Shown: one piece after another, positions 5,448 to 56,527 of the stretch
Numbering within the stretch: position 1 is the first letter of the stretch
How the letters are laid out: every line of letters starts with the position of its first letter
Assembly: GCF_028553745.1 (NCBI RefSeq)
Contig: NZ_CP067129.1
Location: forward strand, 1,780,501-1,844,500
Direction: 5' to 3'
DNA: 64,000 nucleotides
From: Paracoccus seriniphilus
Lineage (GTDB): Bacteria > Pseudomonadota > Alphaproteobacteria > Rhodobacterales > Rhodobacteraceae
Made by a program: the position numbers and the translations under genes
Notes under the pieces: generated by a model
What the model saw: only the letters and a program-made list of their open reading frames with translations
Told to the model about the DNA's origin: nothing
Databases searched by the model: none

Positions 5448-6983
5448 CTAACCTCCGGCCCTCGTGATCTCCAAAAGATGTCTGCGCTGGATCTTTCCCG
5501 ACGGCCCCTTGGGCAGTTCGGCCAGAAAATGGATCGAGTCGGGACTTTTGAATTTTCCCAGTTTTTCGTGACACAACTCGATCAGTTCAGCCTCGGATGC
5601 GGCGGCTCCGGCGCGCAGCGCAACCGCCGCCTCGACCCGCTCGCCATAGCTTGAACATGGGCGCGCGAAAGCAGCCGCCTCGACAACATCGGGATGGGCA
5701 TAGAGCGCCTCATCCACCTCTCGAGGGGCGATATTCTCGCCACCCTTGATGATCAGTTCCTTGAGCCGCCCGGTGACAAAGACGAACCCGTCGGCGTCCA
5801 TGCGCCCCAGATCCCCGGTACGCAGCCAGCCATCCTCGGTCAGCGCCTCCTTCGTCGCAGCCTCGTTCTTCAGATATCCGCGCATGACATTGGGGCCGCG
5901 CACGGCAATCTCGCCCTCGGTATCAGGGGGCAGCGGCATCAGATCGGGACCAAGGATCACCACCCTGTCGCCATAGGCCTTTCCCGGCGAACCGATCTTG
6001 CGCTCGGCCTCGGACAGCGGATTGGACAGGATCTGCGCCGCAGTTTCCGTCAGCCCCATGGTCTCGATCAGCGATATACCGAAACGTTCTTCGAAAGCCC
6101 GGTGGACCTCGGGCGCCAGCGCCGAGGATGCCGAGCGGCCGAAACGGATGCGTTCGCGTGTGTCCACATCAGGTCGCTCGTCGCTATGCAACAGATGCGA
6201 CACGATCGTCGGCACGACCGAGAACCATGTCACCTCGGCCTCGCCGCATTGATCCCAGAACTTGCGCGCAGAGAAACGCTCGCAGATGGCGACGGATCCC
6301 CCCGAGACCAGCGGCCCCATGACGGTCACGCAAAGCCCGTTGATATGGCAGATCGGCAGCACGCAAAGCGCGCGATCCTCGCTGGTCAGTTCATGCGCCA
6401 GTGCCGTCGTCCAGCCGCCTGCCAGCAGACTGGAATGGCTGTGCACCACGCCCTTGGGACGTCCTGTCGTCCCCGAGGTATACATCAGCAGCGCATCATC
6501 CTGGGCATTCAACTCGCAAAGCGGCGCTTCGCCAGTTGCGGCAGGCCAGTCAATGCCATCCTCCACCCGTATGGCAATGGCGTTGAAATCATGCGACTGG
6601 GCGGCGCTTGCAAACAGTTCTTCCTGCCCTGCGCCGACGAAGACGTGACTGGCCTCGGAATGGGACAGGGCATAGCCGATGGCCTCGGCCCCGGCCGCCA
6701 GATTGATGACCGTGGTGCGAAACCCGCCATAGAGCACACCGAAAAGACAAAGGATCGCGTCCCTGCTGTTGGGCAGCATCACGGCCACGCTGGTGCCCCT
6801 GGACACTCCCAGACCTGCCAGACGGGCCGCAATGACGCGTGCCTCGTCGCGAAGTTCGGCCCAGGTCAAGGGCGCCGCACTGCCGGGAAACAGGTGACTG
6901 ATCGTCCGGCCTGCCGTCTCTGCGCGATGATCAAGCCAGTCGCGGACCGTGCCGATGGGCGGTGTCGAAGCGTCGTAGTTCAC
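5448..6983 (-). CDS. sauT: AMP-forming acyl-CoA ligase, SauT-like (sulfoacetate-CoA ligase candidate)
   Basis: ANL-superfamily enzyme of 511 residues that would activate a carboxylic acid to its CoA thioester with ATP. Visible motifs: the P-loop LLMYTSGTTGRPKG (about residues 165-178), MGLTETAA (adenine binding), GWLRTGDLGRMDADG (hinge and ribose binding), KELIIKGGENIAP, and the C-terminal catalytic lysine in GPSGKIQRRH. The start is GTG at 6983, overlapping the stop of the upstream dehydrogenase gene (GTGA). Pairing of such a ligase with a CoA-acylating aldehyde dehydrogenase is the arrangement known for SauT/SauS in Cupriavidus necator sulfoacetate degradation. The ligase class is certain; the substrate is inferred. 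Confidence 0.85.
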   Translation of the reverse strand: MNYDASTPPIGTVRDWLDHRAETAGRTISHLFPGSAAPLTWAELRDEARVIAARLAGLGVSRGTSVAVMLPNSRDAILCLFGVLYGGFRTTVINLAAGAEAIGYALSHSEASHVFVGAGQEELFASAAQSHDFNAIAIRVEDGIDWPAATGEAPLCELNAQDDALLMYTSGTTGRPKGVVHSHSSLLAGGWTTALAHELTSEDRALCVLPICHINGLCVTVMGPLVSGGSVAICERFSARKFWDQCGEAEVTWFSVVPTIVSHLLHSDERPDVDTRERIRFGRSASSALAPEVHRAFEERFGISLIETMGLTETAAQILSNPLSEAERKIGSPGKAYGDRVVILGPDLMPLPPDTEGEIAVRGPNVMRGYLKNEAATKEALTEDGWLRTGDLGRMDADGFVFVTGRLKELIIKGGENIAPREVDEALYAHPDVVEAAAFARPCSSYGERVEAAVALRAGAAASEAELIELCHEKLGKFKSPDSIHFLAELPKGPSGKIQRRHLLEITRAGG

Positions 6984-51750: not shown

Positions 51751-52800
51751 ATGTTGCGCCTGGACCCCATACGCCCGATTGCCAACCGATTTTGCCGTCT
51801 GGTCGGCCTGCCCCGCCCGGAACTGACCGATCTTGCCATCGAGCGATGGGAGATCTCGCCCGCCGAAACCCGCGAGGTTCCGCCGGTGATTGCCCTTCCC
51901 GGTCAGGCCGAGCGCATCACCCGCACGGAATTCGCCCCCATCGAGGCGGTTCTGCAATCGCTGGCTGGCGACCCCGCCGAATTCATTCCCGCCACCATGG
52001 GATACCGGCTGCGAGACGTCGATTTCGTGGACGGTGCCCTTTACGCGGGCGGAGCCGAACTGCACCTGCGGCGGCGCCAAAGATCGCATCTGACCCATCA
52101 CCACCCGCGCGACTCGATTTCGGGTGCATTGTATGAAAGCTGGGTCGGCAATCGCTGGTTCGGGAACTGGCTGCTTGACGATTGTCTCAGCTATCGGCTT
52201 GCCGAGGAATATGGCCAGCCCGTCACGTCCACCCCGCCCCGAGGTGGCCATGTGCCCCGCTATGAAGAACTGCTGTCGATGAACCCGCAGCGGATCGGCG
52301 ACGTCCATTTCGACGAACTGATCCTGTTTGACGACCACCACAACAACTCGGGCCGCCTTGCCCGCGCTCAGGACATGCGCCAGCGTCTGATTGCCGGGCA
52401 CGAGCTGACCCCCTGCCCCGGTGTTTTCCTGTATCGCGGACGCAGTGGCGATGCGCGGATTCTGGAGAATGAGGACGAGATCGCCGAGAAGCTGGAAAGC
52501 CAATATGGTTTCCGCATCATCTTCGCCGAAGACCACAGCGTGGATGAACTGATCTGCGCCTGTGGCGACACGATGATCATCGCCGGCGTCGAGGGCAGCC
52601 AGCTCAATCACGGCATGGCCGTCATGCCTCCGGGGGGCACCCTGCTGACCATGCAGCCTGCCGATCGTGCGACCACGGCCATGAAGCTGCTGACCGACCG
52701 CTGGCAGCAGCGATTTGCCCTGATGGTCGGGCATGGCACGGCAGAAGGTTTCCGAATTGAATGGTCCGAAGTGCAGGCCACGCTGGACCTGATCCTGTAG
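51751..52800 (+). CDS. Glycosyltransferase family 61-like protein (DUF563)
   Basis: 349 residues, predicted soluble. ELILFDDHHNNSGRLARA, PGVFLYRGRSGDARILENED, FRIIFAEDHSVDELICACGD and IIAGVEGSQLNHGMAVMPPG match the C-terminal capsule-type DUF563/GT61 domain (the last motif normally GxxHGA). An N-terminal RSHLTHHHPRDSISG stretch is unusual. The start at 51751 is the first ATG after an in-frame TTG at 51736; neither has a good ribosome site. It is the first gene of a five-gene cassette and lies 90 bases after hisH, in the same direction. Donor and acceptor sugars are unknown. Confidence 0.72.
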   Translation: MLRLDPIRPIANRFCRLVGLPRPELTDLAIERWEISPAETREVPPVIALPGQAERITRTEFAPIEAVLQSLAGDPAEFIPATMGYRLRDVDFVDGALYAGGAELHLRRRQRSHLTHHHPRDSISGALYESWVGNRWFGNWLLDDCLSYRLAEEYGQPVTSTPPRGGHVPRYEELLSMNPQRIGDVHFDELILFDDHHNNSGRLARAQDMRQRLIAGHELTPCPGVFLYRGRSGDARILENEDEIAEKLESQYGFRIIFAEDHSVDELICACGDTMIIAGVEGSQLNHGMAVMPPGGTLLTMQPADRATTAMKLLTDRWQQRFALMVGHGTAEGFRIEWSEVQATLDLIL

Positions 52801-52934
52801 ATAAGGACAGGCCTCAGGCTTTCAAATCAATATCAGCTTGAATTGTCAGGGGCTTCCGGTCATTTTCGACACGCCCTGCATATGTATGCGCTGTTCAGGG
52901 GCGCGCCTTTTGGTTTGTTGTTCAGTTCGGAGTT

Positions 52935-53483
52935 ATGGGTCCCGTGTGGCGTGAAATTTGCAAGGATTATGAAACACATGGCCGCCGCCTGAGCGATCCG
53001 GCCTTTGTCTCTCTGGCCATCTATCGCTATGGCCGATGGGCCATGCAGCGTGAAAACCGCGTCCTGCGCTGGTTCGCCAACAAGCTGTATGGCCTGCTGT
53101 GCATTCTGATCCTGAATGTCACCAAGGTCTGGATTCCGCCAAGCGTCAAACTGGGAGAGGATTTTCACATCATCCATGCCGAAGGCTCGCTTTCGATCCA
53201 CCCCGAGGTGGTGATAGGGGATCGCTGCGGTGTCATGCACAATGTCACCATCGGCACGAATATGGGGCCGGGTGCACCCAAGATCGGCGATGATGTGTTT
53301 ATCGGCGTCAACTCGACCGTGCTGGGAAGAATCCGCATTGGCAATCGCGTCCGCATCGGTGCCAACACCGCCGTCTCGACCAATGTGCCCGATGACAGCA
53401 TCGTGGTCGGCTCTCCGGCGCGGATCTATCCCAATCTGCCGATCTTTGCGCAGAAGACCAAGAAACCCAAAGGTGACGCATGA
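52935..53483 (+). CDS. Serine O-acetyltransferase-like LbH protein (EpsC/CysE family)
   Basis: 182 residues with a left-handed beta-helix of hexapeptide repeats. HIIHAEGSLSIHPEVVIGD, CGVMHNVTIGT with the catalytic His, and VFIGVNSTVLGRIRIGNRVR are CysE-like, but it lacks the long N-terminal domain of housekeeping CysE. Related short forms occur in capsule and exosortase loci. The frame begins at 52935, where GGAG is only 2 bases away; a GTG at 52944 is a better-spaced alternative. It overlaps the ligase gene by four bases, so they are coupled. Acetyl transfer to a serine or sugar hydroxyl is plausible but unproven. Confidence 0.8.
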   Translation: MGPVWREICKDYETHGRRLSDPAFVSLAIYRYGRWAMQRENRVLRWFANKLYGLLCILILNVTKVWIPPSVKLGEDFHIIHAEGSLSIHPEVVIGDRCGVMHNVTIGTNMGPGAPKIGDDVFIGVNSTVLGRIRIGNRVRIGANTAVSTNVPDDSIVVGSPARIYPNLPIFAQKTKKPKGDA

Positions 53484-55057
53484 GTGACGCGGGCGAGAAA
53501 TCCATGTGGCGCCTGTTGGCGGACAACCTTCCCGAACGCGGCGACAAGACGGCGCTGATCGATGCAAAACGCGATGTGACCTATGCTCTGGCCGCGGATG
53601 AGGCCAACCGCGTCGCGGCATGGCTGCAGGCGCGCGGCATAGCTGCAGGGGATCGCGTCATCGTGCATCTGCGCAAGGGTATCGATGAGGTCGCCGCCAT
53701 GTTCGGCGTCTGGAAGATCGGCGCCGTGGTGGTGAATGTGAACCACCAATGGACCGCCGCCCAACTGGGTTATGTCGCCGAAGACTGCCGCGCCCGCGCC
53801 GCCATTCTGGGCGCCAGCGTGTTGAAATCCCTGACGAGCCAGCCTCTGCCCGCCTCGGTGACTGATCTGCTGGTGCAGGGCCGCGCCAGCGCCATTCCCG
53901 GGAATGCGACATTGTGGAGCGATCTGCCGGCTTCTTCTGCGGATGAGGCCATGCCTGATCCGGGTGATCTGGCGATGATCATCTATACGTCAGGCTCGAC
54001 CGGAAAACCCAAGGGTGTGATGCTGAGCCATCGCAATATCCGCGTCGGCGCGGATTCAGTGGCCGAATACCTGGGGCTGGGCGAGGATGACCGGCTGCTG
54101 TCGGTCCTGCCCTACAGTTTTGATGCCGGGTTGAACCAGTTGACCAGCGCCTTTCTGCTGGGCGCGACGGTTGTGCATCAGCCGGTCTCGATGCCTTCCG
54201 AGGTCGTGCGCATGGCGCGCGACCATCACGTGACAACCATTGCCGGGGTGCCGCCGCTGTGGAATCAGGTGGTGCGCTATCTGGATGACGCCGATATTCG
54301 ATTGCCGGATCTGCGCCGCGTCACCAATACCGGTGGCAAGATCCCGCCAAATATCCTGGAACTGATGCCGAAGGTGTTTCCCGACACCGACATCGTGCTG
54401 ATGTATGGTCTGACCGAAGCCTTTCGTTCGACCTATCTGCCCCCTGACCGTTTCGCACAGAAAATGGGCTCGATCGGGCGGGGCATCCCCAATGCGCAGA
54501 TCTTTGTCGTCAAACATGGCGAAGGCATTGCCGGTCCCGGCGAACAGGGGGAATTGGTCCATGCCGGCCCTCTGGTCAGCCTCGGCTATTGGGAACGCCC
54601 CGAAATGACGGCTGAAAAGATCCGCATCTGTCCCGAATTGCGGGACCAGCTGGGTGATGCACCGGTCGTCTATTCGGGCGATCTGGTGCGTCTGGACGAG
54701 GATGGCGACATGTGGTTCGTCAGCCGCATGGACGACATGATCAAGACACTGGGGTTCCGTCTGTCGCCGACCGAGGTCGAGGATCTGCTGTCGCAATCGG
54801 GGCTGGTCGGCGATGTGGTCGCCTATGGTGTCGATGACGACGATCACGGGCAGGTCGTCCATGTCGCCGCCACGATGATCGGAACGGCAGATGTGGACGC
54901 GCTGATGTCCCATGCCCGCCGCAGCATGGCGCATTACATGGTGCCCCGCCATATTCATCACTGGAGCGGTGCCATGCCGCGTACCGCAAGCGGGAAACTC
55001 GACCGCCCCACCATCATCGCCGCAGCAAAAGCCGCTTTTGACAAGGATATGCAATGA
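53480..55057 (+). CDS. AMP-forming acyl/aminoacyl ligase of the ACP cassette
   Basis: 525-residue ANL enzyme. P-loop MIIYTSGSTGKPKGVMLSH (about 166-183), VTNTGGKIP and MYGLTEAFRSTYLPPDRFAQ, YSGDLVRLDEDGDMWFVSRM, and C-terminal catalytic Lys in PRTASGKLDRP. It starts by overlapping the acetyltransferase gene (ATGA) and ends overlapping the ACP gene by four bases, which strongly suggests that it charges that ACP with a carboxylic acid or amino acid. It resembles the CoA ligase of exosortase-A loci in length and motif layout. The substrate-pocket residues cannot be assigned by eye. Confidence 0.87.
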   Translation: MSDAGEKSMWRLLADNLPERGDKTALIDAKRDVTYALAADEANRVAAWLQARGIAAGDRVIVHLRKGIDEVAAMFGVWKIGAVVVNVNHQWTAAQLGYVAEDCRARAAILGASVLKSLTSQPLPASVTDLLVQGRASAIPGNATLWSDLPASSADEAMPDPGDLAMIIYTSGSTGKPKGVMLSHRNIRVGADSVAEYLGLGEDDRLLSVLPYSFDAGLNQLTSAFLLGATVVHQPVSMPSEVVRMARDHHVTTIAGVPPLWNQVVRYLDDADIRLPDLRRVTNTGGKIPPNILELMPKVFPDTDIVLMYGLTEAFRSTYLPPDRFAQKMGSIGRGIPNAQIFVVKHGEGIAGPGEQGELVHAGPLVSLGYWERPEMTAEKIRICPELRDQLGDAPVVYSGDLVRLDEDGDMWFVSRMDDMIKTLGFRLSPTEVEDLLSQSGLVGDVVAYGVDDDDHGQVVHVAATMIGTADVDALMSHARRSMAHYMVPRHIHHWSGAMPRTASGKLDRPTIIAAAKAAFDKDMQ

Positions 55058-55290
55058 GCCTGACCACCGAAGATCTGATCCGCTTCATTCGTGACGAACT
55101 GAATGTCGAAGAGGAAATCGCTGCGGATACCGAATTGTTCTCGACCGCCATCCTGGATTCGGTGGCGATGATGAACATCATAGCCTTCGTCGAAGAAAAG
55201 GCGGAAATCGAGGTCCGCCCTGCCGATGTAACGCTGGAAAATTTCGACACCGTCCAAGCCATCGTGGATTATGCGCGTGAACAGGCCTGA
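55054..55290 (+). CDS. Acyl carrier protein
   Basis: 78 residues, acidic, four-helix carrier. The phosphopantetheine Ser36 lies in AILDSVAMMNIIAFVEEK (DS motif with hydrophobic follow-up), and the sequence is not that of the fatty-acid AcpP (no DSLDTVELVM). It is therefore a dedicated carrier for the ligase encoded just before it. The start overlaps the ligase stop, and its end overlaps the decarboxylase start by 20 bases. A phosphopantetheinyl transferase is not in the window. Confidence 0.93.
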   Translation: MSLTTEDLIRFIRDELNVEEEIAADTELFSTAILDSVAMMNIIAFVEEKAEIEVRPADVTLENFDTVQAIVDYAREQA

Positions 55291-56527
55291 ATCCGATATC
55301 GACCCCATTCTGACGCAGGCCGCCGACCGGTTCGGAACGCCCGCCTATGTCTATTCCACCGATCTGATCGATGCGCGGATCACGGCGCTGGAACGCAGTC
55401 TGGGCCGCTGGTTCAAGCTGTCCTATGCGATGAAGTGCAATCCGAACCCCGAATTGCTGTCCTGGTTGCACAAGCGCATTCCCTGTATCGACGTCTCCTC
55501 GGGCGGAGAGCTGATGCTCGCGCTTGGCGCGGGATGGCGGGCAGATCAGGCGAGTTTCACCGGCCCCGCCAAGCGCGAGGTCGAGTTGCGCCATGCCATC
55601 GAGGCAGGGCTGGGCGAACTGGTGGTCGAATCGCTGCGCGAGGCGCGGCTGGCGAATCGCATCGCCGGTGAAAGCGGCAAGATCCAGAATGTCGTCATCC
55701 GCATAGCCCCGGACCGTGTGCCCAAGGGCTTTGGCGACCAGATGGCCGGGCGACCCAGCCCCTTTGGCATCGACATCGAGGAAGCTCCGGCGGCCCTGAC
55801 CGAGATCGCCGCCCTGCCCCATCTGCGCATCGCGGGTCTGCATATCTATTCCGGCACGCAATGCCTGAAGCCCGCCGCACTTGTCGAGAACTGGGGGATC
55901 TTCATCTCGATCTTTCGCGAGCTGTGCGAACACCATGACCTGCATCCCGACCGGCTGATCTTTGGAGCCGGGTTGGGCATCCCTTATCACCCCGGCGACC
56001 AGGCTCTGGATCTGGATGAGATCGCCGAGGCCATCGCGCCCGAACTGGACGCGCTGCGCAGCGATCCGCGCTTTTCGGACACCGATCTGGTGCTGGAACT
56101 GGGCCGCTATCTTGTCGGCCCGGCAGGCTATTTCGTGACCCGTGTCACCTCGATAAAGGAATCGCGGGGCACCCGCATCGCGATCTGCGATGGCGGCATG
56201 AACGGCCATCTGGCGGCCTCGGGGAATTTCGGCATGGTGTTGCGACGCAATTACGTGATCCATCGCGTCGGTGGCGGAGCGGGCGAGGAACCGATCGACA
56301 TCACCGGCCCGCTCTGCACCTCGATTGACAAGCTGGGGGCCAAGGTCGCCCTGCCCCGCATCGAGGAAGGGGATCTGATTGCCATTCACGCCAGCGGCGC
56401 CTATGGTCCGACCTCCAGCCCGGTGAATTTCATCAGCCATCCCGCCCCGCGCGAGATCATTGCCCAGGGCGGCCAGTTGACCGATGCCACACGCATCGAA
56501 AGCTGCGGCCTGCGCGACCCGTCCTGA
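55271..56527 (+). CDS. PLP-dependent amino acid decarboxylase (Orn/DAP group, exosortase-A-like branch)
   Basis: 418 residues, fold III decarboxylase. PLP-Lys55 in [28 protein letters not shown], the HIYSGTQ loop, [25 protein letters not shown], active-site Cys in [11 protein letters not shown] and the terminal [19 protein letters not shown]. The last two fit the branch found with ligase and ACP genes in exosortase-A loci rather than LysA or SpeC. The substrate may be a free diamino acid or an aminoacyl group bound to the neighbouring ACP; this is inference. The ATG at 55271 ([10 protein letters not shown]) is the best start; a GTG two codons later is also possible. Confidence 0.86.

Follow-up and report, generated by a model that had tools for sequence, protein, structure and literature searches.

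Two described pathways come closest to the five-gene cassette considered here, which lies at positions 51751-56527 of a 64,000-nucleotide stretch of Paracoccus seriniphilus DNA (the window) and encodes a glycosyltransferase (GT61), a left-handed beta-helix acyltransferase (LbH), an adenylating ligase (LIG), an acyl or aminoacyl carrier protein (ACP) and a decarboxylase dependent on pyridoxal phosphate (PLP), referred to as DC. In the VinN-VinL-VinO system of vicenistatin biosynthesis in Streptomyces, as described in PMC11284099, a stand-alone adenylating enzyme, a stand-alone ACP and a PLP decarboxylase load an acidic amino acid and then decarboxylate it on the carrier: VinN loads 3-methylaspartate (3-MeAsp) on VinL, and the thioester must form before VinO decarboxylates. 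In the synthesis of the butirosin side chain in Bacillus circulans, PMC7857480 has BtrK acting on BtrI-S-glutamate to yield gamma-aminobutyrate (GABA)-BtrI by decarboxylation on the carrier, the end product being an aminoglycoside. A further related pair, a ligase and a decarboxylase associated with exosortase-A, is represented in NCBIfam by models (TIGR03098 and TIGR03099) that are "hypothetical equivalogs" only. The first-pass annotation of the window had stated that no product was described for a set such as the cassette. This still holds for the glycan setting, as we found no described product or function of a ligase, ACP and decarboxylase set in a glycan locus in the open-licence literature, but the chemistry itself has precedents in BtrI/BtrK and VinN/VinL/VinO. 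The parts are known; no account of them in combination with glycan genes was found.

The cassette shares with VinN-VinL-VinO the stand-alone adenylating enzyme, the stand-alone ACP, the PLP decarboxylase and the pocket Asp, Ser/Thr and Arg common to VinN and LIG, and loading of an acidic amino acid followed by decarboxylation on the carrier is the predicted counterpart of the vicenistatin steps. It differs in that the trio is accompanied by GT61, LbH and, in most relatives, an esterase of family CE2, and in that it lies, where linked, near polysaccharide genes and not macrolactam genes. VinO and DC are likened by described role and not by sequence; Genes for a second aminoacylation and for transfer to a polyketide synthase, the parts played by VinM and VinK, are absent from the five cassette genes, no genome-wide search for them having been made. 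With butirosin the common element is the decarboxylase, DC being homologous to BtrK (225.6 bits), whereas the cassette uses an AMP-binding ligase and the butirosin ligase BtrJ has a different fold. The exosortase-A-associated pair belongs to the same wider ligase and decarboxylase families and has the same D and R pocket residues. By contrast with that pair, LIG and DC score below the family cut-offs, the cassette decarboxylases form a separate clade, and the cassette adds LbH, GT61 and CE2, with no exosortase in the host genome.

We propose, giving this reading an even chance, that the cassette is a carrier-protein aminoacylation and decarboxylation module serving a Wzx/Wzy-type exopolysaccharide. 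Its genes are as follows.

GT61, 51751-52800, plus strand, 349 amino acids (aa): glycosyltransferase family 61 (PF04577, 56.8 bits).
LbH, 52935-53483, plus strand, 182 aa: acyltransferase with a short left-handed beta-helix, similar to CysE/EpsC/WcaB (PF00132).
LIG, 53480-55057, plus strand, 525 aa: stand-alone adenylating ligase (PF00501, 276 bits; PF13193; TIGR03098, 509.7 bits).
ACP, 55054-55290, plus strand, 78 aa: acyl or aminoacyl carrier protein with an LDS site (PF00550, 29.5 bits).
DC, 55271-56527, plus strand, 418 aa: BtrK-like PLP decarboxylase (PF02784/PF00278).

All five open reading frames (ORFs) have codon use of the coding type, and each Pfam match (PF04577, PF00132, PF00501/PF13193, PF00550, PF02784/PF00278) is above its gathering score. 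LbH and LIG overlap by 4 bases, LIG and ACP by 4 and ACP and DC by 20, and a gap of 134 bases separates GT61 from LbH; coordinates, overlaps and family calls of the first reading are thereby confirmed. The weak NCBIfam matches of ACP (OlsHI ACP, DltC, AmcB) are all below cut-off. The set is flanked by hisB-hisH on one side and an adenine deaminase gene on the other, and the window belongs to contig C1 of a genome (G000) of 4.26 Mb with a completeness of 100.

To what extent these genes belong together was judged from a sample of 121 Paracoccus genomes, 38 of which have a cassette-type decarboxylase (E <1e-90) besides a lower-scoring LysA-like match. The surroundings of all 38 were examined in stretches of 11.5 to 21 kb (plus the window); two genomes with a variant arrangement (G040, G027) were set aside, leaving 36 loci, and G101, in which the decarboxylase is split, was never among the 38. 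Loci were counted by tblastn because the codon-based gene caller erred in some GC-rich loci (e.g. L002, L045, L047, L049, L055). LbH, LIG, ACP and DC keep their order and strand in 36/36 loci, so the arrangement is not due to chance. GT61 adjoins them in 34 loci (it is missing in G060 and G004), and in G095 it is inverted and lies downstream. What looked like a five-gene cassette in the window is a six-gene unit in 33 of the 36 loci, where a CE2/SGNH esterase gene lies nearby (missing in G000, G110 and G095); the esterase copies match CE2_N and GDSL, some failing one of the two cut-offs. A profile search of the whole host genome, which had no positive control, found no CE2/SGNH esterase. The neighbourhood is a Mrp antiporter gene in 23 loci, an adenine deaminase gene in eight (with hisH too in seven), polysaccharide genes in four (G028, G055, G044, G103) and neither kind in one; since these surroundings vary while the gene set stays together, the cassette moves as a block.

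Outside Paracoccus the cassette is rare in the genome samples searched. In a sample of the family (295 genomes), seven have a decarboxylase match at E <=1e-75, G000 and G044 among them; G153 has the cassette, G130, G194 and G263 have other arrangements, and the contig of G335, only 3.85 kb long, does not allow the arrangement to be read. A cassette-like decarboxylase score was obtained in a class sample of 385 genomes for G000 only (748 bits; next best 455). All five genes are also found in Novosphingobium (L006), in G668 and in Neorhizobium sp. SOG26. In a metagenome-assembled genome (L005) there is a close ligase, and the 17.5 kb examined contain no LbH, ACP or DC. In a plasmid collection, LIG matches occur in six records (E <=1e-100), and the same six carry LbH, DC at at least 56% identity (among the 40 listed of 60 matching records) and GT61 at at least 44% identity (seven records matched). 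Records of P. pantotrophus and P. versutus match all four of these genes. Six of the eight named LIG relatives are from Paracoccus.

LIG scores 509.7 bits against TIGR03098, below the cut-off of 592.35. Among solved structures it matches amino-acid adenylation domains and VinN best, ahead of acyl-CoA ligases, and for the pocket stretch the best solved match is VinN itself. Residues D215, T284 and R316 of LIG, whose predicted structure model has a pLDDT (predicted local distance difference test) of 92.3, align with the Asp, Ser and Arg of the VinN pocket for acidic beta-amino acids. D215 and R316 are present in 30/30 ligases of the alignment and in 8/8 further ligases of the family (38/38), as opposed to the two occurring together in 0/11 other AMP-ligases of the host genome and 0/11 other ligases of the loci (0/22). 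For this count, 11 of 19 other AMP-ligase rows of the host genome were examined, one row (L157) being gapped at the Arg position, and a truncated ligase ORF (L116:18365-19000) and a repeated control (window 5448-6983) were left out. The exosortase-A-associated ligases have the same D and R. The window thus holds both a stand-alone adenylating enzyme with a VinN-type pocket and a stand-alone ACP, whose gene overlaps that of the ligase by 4 bases.

The best solved matches of DC are two BtrK entries (225.6 bits), one of which, 7ru7, bears the name L-glutamyl-[BtrI acyl-carrier protein] decarboxylase, compared with 152.5 bits for the best diaminopimelate decarboxylase. Against TIGR03099 DC scores 374.8 bits, below the cut-off of 478.45. 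The link to the exosortase-A branch drawn earlier was right, ligase and decarboxylase being related to it, though both fall below the TIGR03098 and TIGR03099 cut-offs. A tree built from 46 rows unites the 15 cassette decarboxylases in one clade (100/100), and a branch of 3.01 parts the cassette decarboxylases, the exosortase-type rows, BtrK and others from three Paracoccus LysA rows; the 15 rows labelled exosortase-type are not one group (2 changes). The CE(S/T)GD motif of LysA reads CTSxD in the cassette decarboxylases and CTPED in BtrK; CT(S/P/T)xD runs across cassette, exosortase-type and BtrK rows. The motif HIGSQ of the three LysA rows is no finding, as these rows were picked by it. Judged from its sequence only, DC belongs to the PLP decarboxylase family expected of a carrier-acting enzyme, BtrK-like.

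Decarboxylases related to DC are widespread: in a phylum sample, 104 of 349 genomes match TIGR03099 at E <=1e-75. Another BtrK-like decarboxylase, in a different setting (family f32, e.g. L122-L126; 270-304 bits against TIGR03099), occurs in 61 genomes, mostly small, and in the tree L123 and L126 group with L117 (family f29) in a clade of their own.

From what can be read in the sequences, namely the gene set, its conservation, the enzyme families, the pocket residues and, in some genomes, the polysaccharide linkage, we infer the amino acid, the order of the steps, the role of LbH as transferase and the acceptor. LIG would adenylate an acidic amino acid at its side-chain carboxyl and load it on the phosphopantetheine of ACP, the likely activator of ACP being the Sfp-type transferase of the polysaccharide cluster of the host genome. 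DC would then remove the free alpha-carboxyl of the ACP-bound amino acid by PLP chemistry, leaving an omega-aminoacyl thioester. The substrate is most likely L-aspartate (or a 3-substituted aspartate), which would give beta-alanyl-ACP, the alternative being glutamate, which would give GABA-ACP; on the basis of the VinN pocket, the route from aspartate to beta-alanine appears distinctly the likelier of the two. LbH would probably pass the omega-aminoacyl group to a sugar hydroxyl or amine in the cytoplasm, GT61 would build or finish the decorated unit, which would be exported along with the polymer, and in relatives the CE2 esterase would trim or move the ester. We consider loading by the side-chain carboxyl followed by decarboxylation on the carrier to be probable, and, given these two steps, use of the aminoacyl group on a polysaccharide would be equally so. 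The route conceived in the first-pass annotation, in which an amino acid on the ACP is decarboxylated or acetylated and put on a glycan, is retained in its loading and decarboxylation steps, now the best supported; acetylation is possible and not favoured.

Evidence for the polysaccharide comes from the neighbours of the cassette in a few genomes. In five carriers (G044, G055, G103, G668 and Neorhizobium), genes belonging to an exopolysaccharide locus of one type are found at most about 30 kb from the cassette. A gene resembling those for nonribosomal peptide synthetases (NRPS), of about 1540 codons, is found in 5/5 of these loci, and in G668 its product has formyl transferase, AMP-binding, luciferase-like monooxygenase and carrier domains. 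A polyketide synthase (PKS) is encoded in G044, G055, G103 and G668, with none in the 23 kb of Neorhizobium examined, and a phosphopantetheinyl transferase in G103, G668 and Neorhizobium. Glycosyltransferases occur in all five, and relatives of sugar transferase, WecG, Wzy, Wzx, Wza and Wzc in varying subsets. In G028, Wzy, Wzx and phosphopantetheinyl transferase genes are near the cassette, and NRPS and PKS are on a different contig. In the host genome, a cluster of this type without the cassette lies at roughly C1:1275000-1301500 (L186, L187), about 530 kb from the cassette, and encodes PKS, NRPS, Wzx, Wzy and a phosphopantetheinyl transferase; its single-module PKS is 2132 aa long, and no description of this exopolysaccharide cluster with a PKS and an NRPS-like protein was found in the open-licence literature. 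Among the 121 Paracoccus genomes, NRPS is present in 62, comprising 36/36 with and 26/85 without the cassette (Fisher 2.9e-14, genomes being counted regardless of shared descent), and PKS in 65, including all 36 cassette carriers. Two observations speak against this link: 32 of the 36 Paracoccus cassettes do not adjoin such an exopolysaccharide cluster in the stretch examined, and a search of about 99 kb round the cassette of G153 for exopolysaccharide genes gave a weak PKS match (85 bits) and nothing else. In our reading, the cassette is an optional addition to the exopolysaccharide system.

The same gene content allows for another explanation, which is unlikely in our view but survives better than the others. 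The omega-aminoacyl-ACP could serve the PKS and NRPS-like enzymes of the cluster as starter or building block, in the manner of beta-amino acid macrolactams, the product being a small metabolite or a polyketide-peptide group; LbH and GT61 would act at a later stage or on something different. PKS and NRPS in all 36 cassette-bearing Paracoccus agree with this, and VinN-type loading supplies a PKS according to PMC11284099. However, 26 other Paracoccus have NRPS without the cassette, so the NRPS/PKS pair of the cluster is independent of it; the cassette has its own acyltransferase, glycosyltransferase and, in 33/36 loci, esterase; and a second adenylating enzyme or malonyl-type acyltransferase is absent from the five genes.

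As to the acceptor, a gmd gene and a DegT-family gene lie near the cassette in 15/36 loci, with a GDP-fucose-synthase-like gene between them where examined. The DegT protein has HH at the expected position of the PLP lysine, FFSHHISTMEGG, in 9/9 rows (L003 and L061 being one species), as in the ColD/RfbH type, and its best score, below cut-off, is with RfbH. Because of these two features, a dideoxysugar is likelier than perosamine, and the amino sugar perosamine was dropped as a candidate acceptor. The Gmd, GDP-fucose-synthase-like and ColD-like genes are found at L044:1818-5032 and, in the host genome, on another contig (C3:123800-127050).

In the module proposed here, LbH would act as a transferase of the carrier-bound group rather than as an acetyltransferase, a role that we favour somewhat. 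LbH is below all NCBIfam cut-offs shown (EpsC 89.5 bits, cut-off 150; cysE 78.7 bits, cut-off 210.65). Compared with CysE structures, the family keeps the His of the LDH motif and not the preceding Asp, and in 1/12 members the His is replaced by Asn. In G095 (L059:349-2481), LbH and LIG form one reading frame of 711 residues, which matches LbH of the window at 69% over 178 residues and LIG at 68% over 513; the fusion, a single instance in a draft genome, suggests joint action of the two proteins. LbH might instead acetylate the amino acid, but no finding favours this over transfer of the carrier-bound group. A more far-reaching objection would be plain O-acetylation of the glycan, with LbH adding acetyl groups from acetyl-CoA, CE2 removing them, and LIG, ACP and DC serving some other small-amine or lipid pathway. 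LbH does resemble the CysE/EpsC/WcaB acetyltransferases, and for the esterase there are matches to CE2_N and, under the cut-off, to a model of acetylxylan esterase/deacetylase. Nevertheless, LbH adjoins LIG in 36/36 loci and 6/6 plasmid records, in addition to the shared frame of G095, and we hold this explanation to be improbable, a little more so than a PKS/NRPS starter.

The annotation had linked the decarboxylase to exosortase-A loci while noting no exosortase or PEP-CTERM protein in the window; both were searched for in the whole host genome. The exosortase profile PF09721 has 0 matches there (among the control genomes, Methanocaldococcus jannaschii gave a match), and no PEP-CTERM match (PF07589) is above cut-off (best 16.4 bits versus 20.7). 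The observation made on the window hence extends to the genome, an exosortase with PEP-CTERM substrates elsewhere was not found, and an exosortase link was rejected for this host. The set likewise occurs without an exosortase match in 32/36 Paracoccus carriers; matches of 33 to 56 bits are present in the other four (G056, G104, G055, G103). Further afield, G153 has a match (50 bits) and G668 none. In G103 the match is a VPEID-type exosortase/protease (TIGR04162, 362 bits; L168:8394-9950) in the polysaccharide locus of the cassette, beside a VPEID protein of 60 residues (L168:10022-10204), and in G055 its distance from the decarboxylase gene is about 16 kb, again in the polysaccharide locus of the cassette; for these two genomes the link is kept open. 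That the cassette is part of an exosortase-A/PEP-CTERM protein sorting system is nonetheless very improbable: LIG and DC do score best against the exosortase-A-associated models and G103 has its VPEID-type exosortase, but both proteins are below the family cut-offs, the gene calls of the exosortase-type loci contain no relative of LbH or GT61 except a weak LbH match of 29 bits (L100), and the host genome has no exosortase and no PEP-CTERM match above cut-off, while 32/36 carriers have no exosortase match.

Just as improbable is a role of DC as a second lysine/ornithine/diaminopimelate decarboxylase with free amino acids as substrates: the 244.3 bits against TIGR01048 (lysA) that speak for it are under the equivalog cut-off of 297.9, the host genome has a separate LysA-type gene, the CE to CT change is in common with BtrK, and DC is kept with LIG and ACP in 36/36 loci.

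If the pocket and the likeness to BtrK can be taken at face value, the product of the trio is a beta-alanyl- or GABA-type thioester, which would provide a testable function for a widespread ligase/ACP/decarboxylase trio and bridge nonribosomal and polyketide loading chemistry with biofilm polymers. Cationic aminoacyl groups would then be predicted on polysaccharides of Paracoccus, Neorhizobium and Novosphingobium and, by extension, for pSymB of Sinorhizobium meliloti, a model organism carrying the exosortase-A-type pair (L174). Our most extended proposal, which we put forward tentatively, is a positively charged exopolysaccharide bearing an omega-amino acid (beta-alanyl or GABA) made by natural-product chemistry on its own carrier protein, possibly extended by the PKS and NRPS-like enzyme of that cluster, with the trio of exosortase loci decorating a glycan there in the same way.

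On pSymB (CP140959), the exosortase-A-type ligase and decarboxylase belong to a glycosyltransferase locus, and the annotation of 21 kb there shows no exosortase, the gene table being incomplete. Finally, a variant trio was seen in L057, L058 and L060, where a decarboxylase and a ligase occur without LbH or GT61; L060 has an ACP as well, and L057 a weak one. Both L057 and L060 encode a related protein some 330 aa long, for which the L060 sequence gives no Pfam or NCBIfam match, and L060 carries a sulfotransferase and a decarboxylase split into two ORFs.

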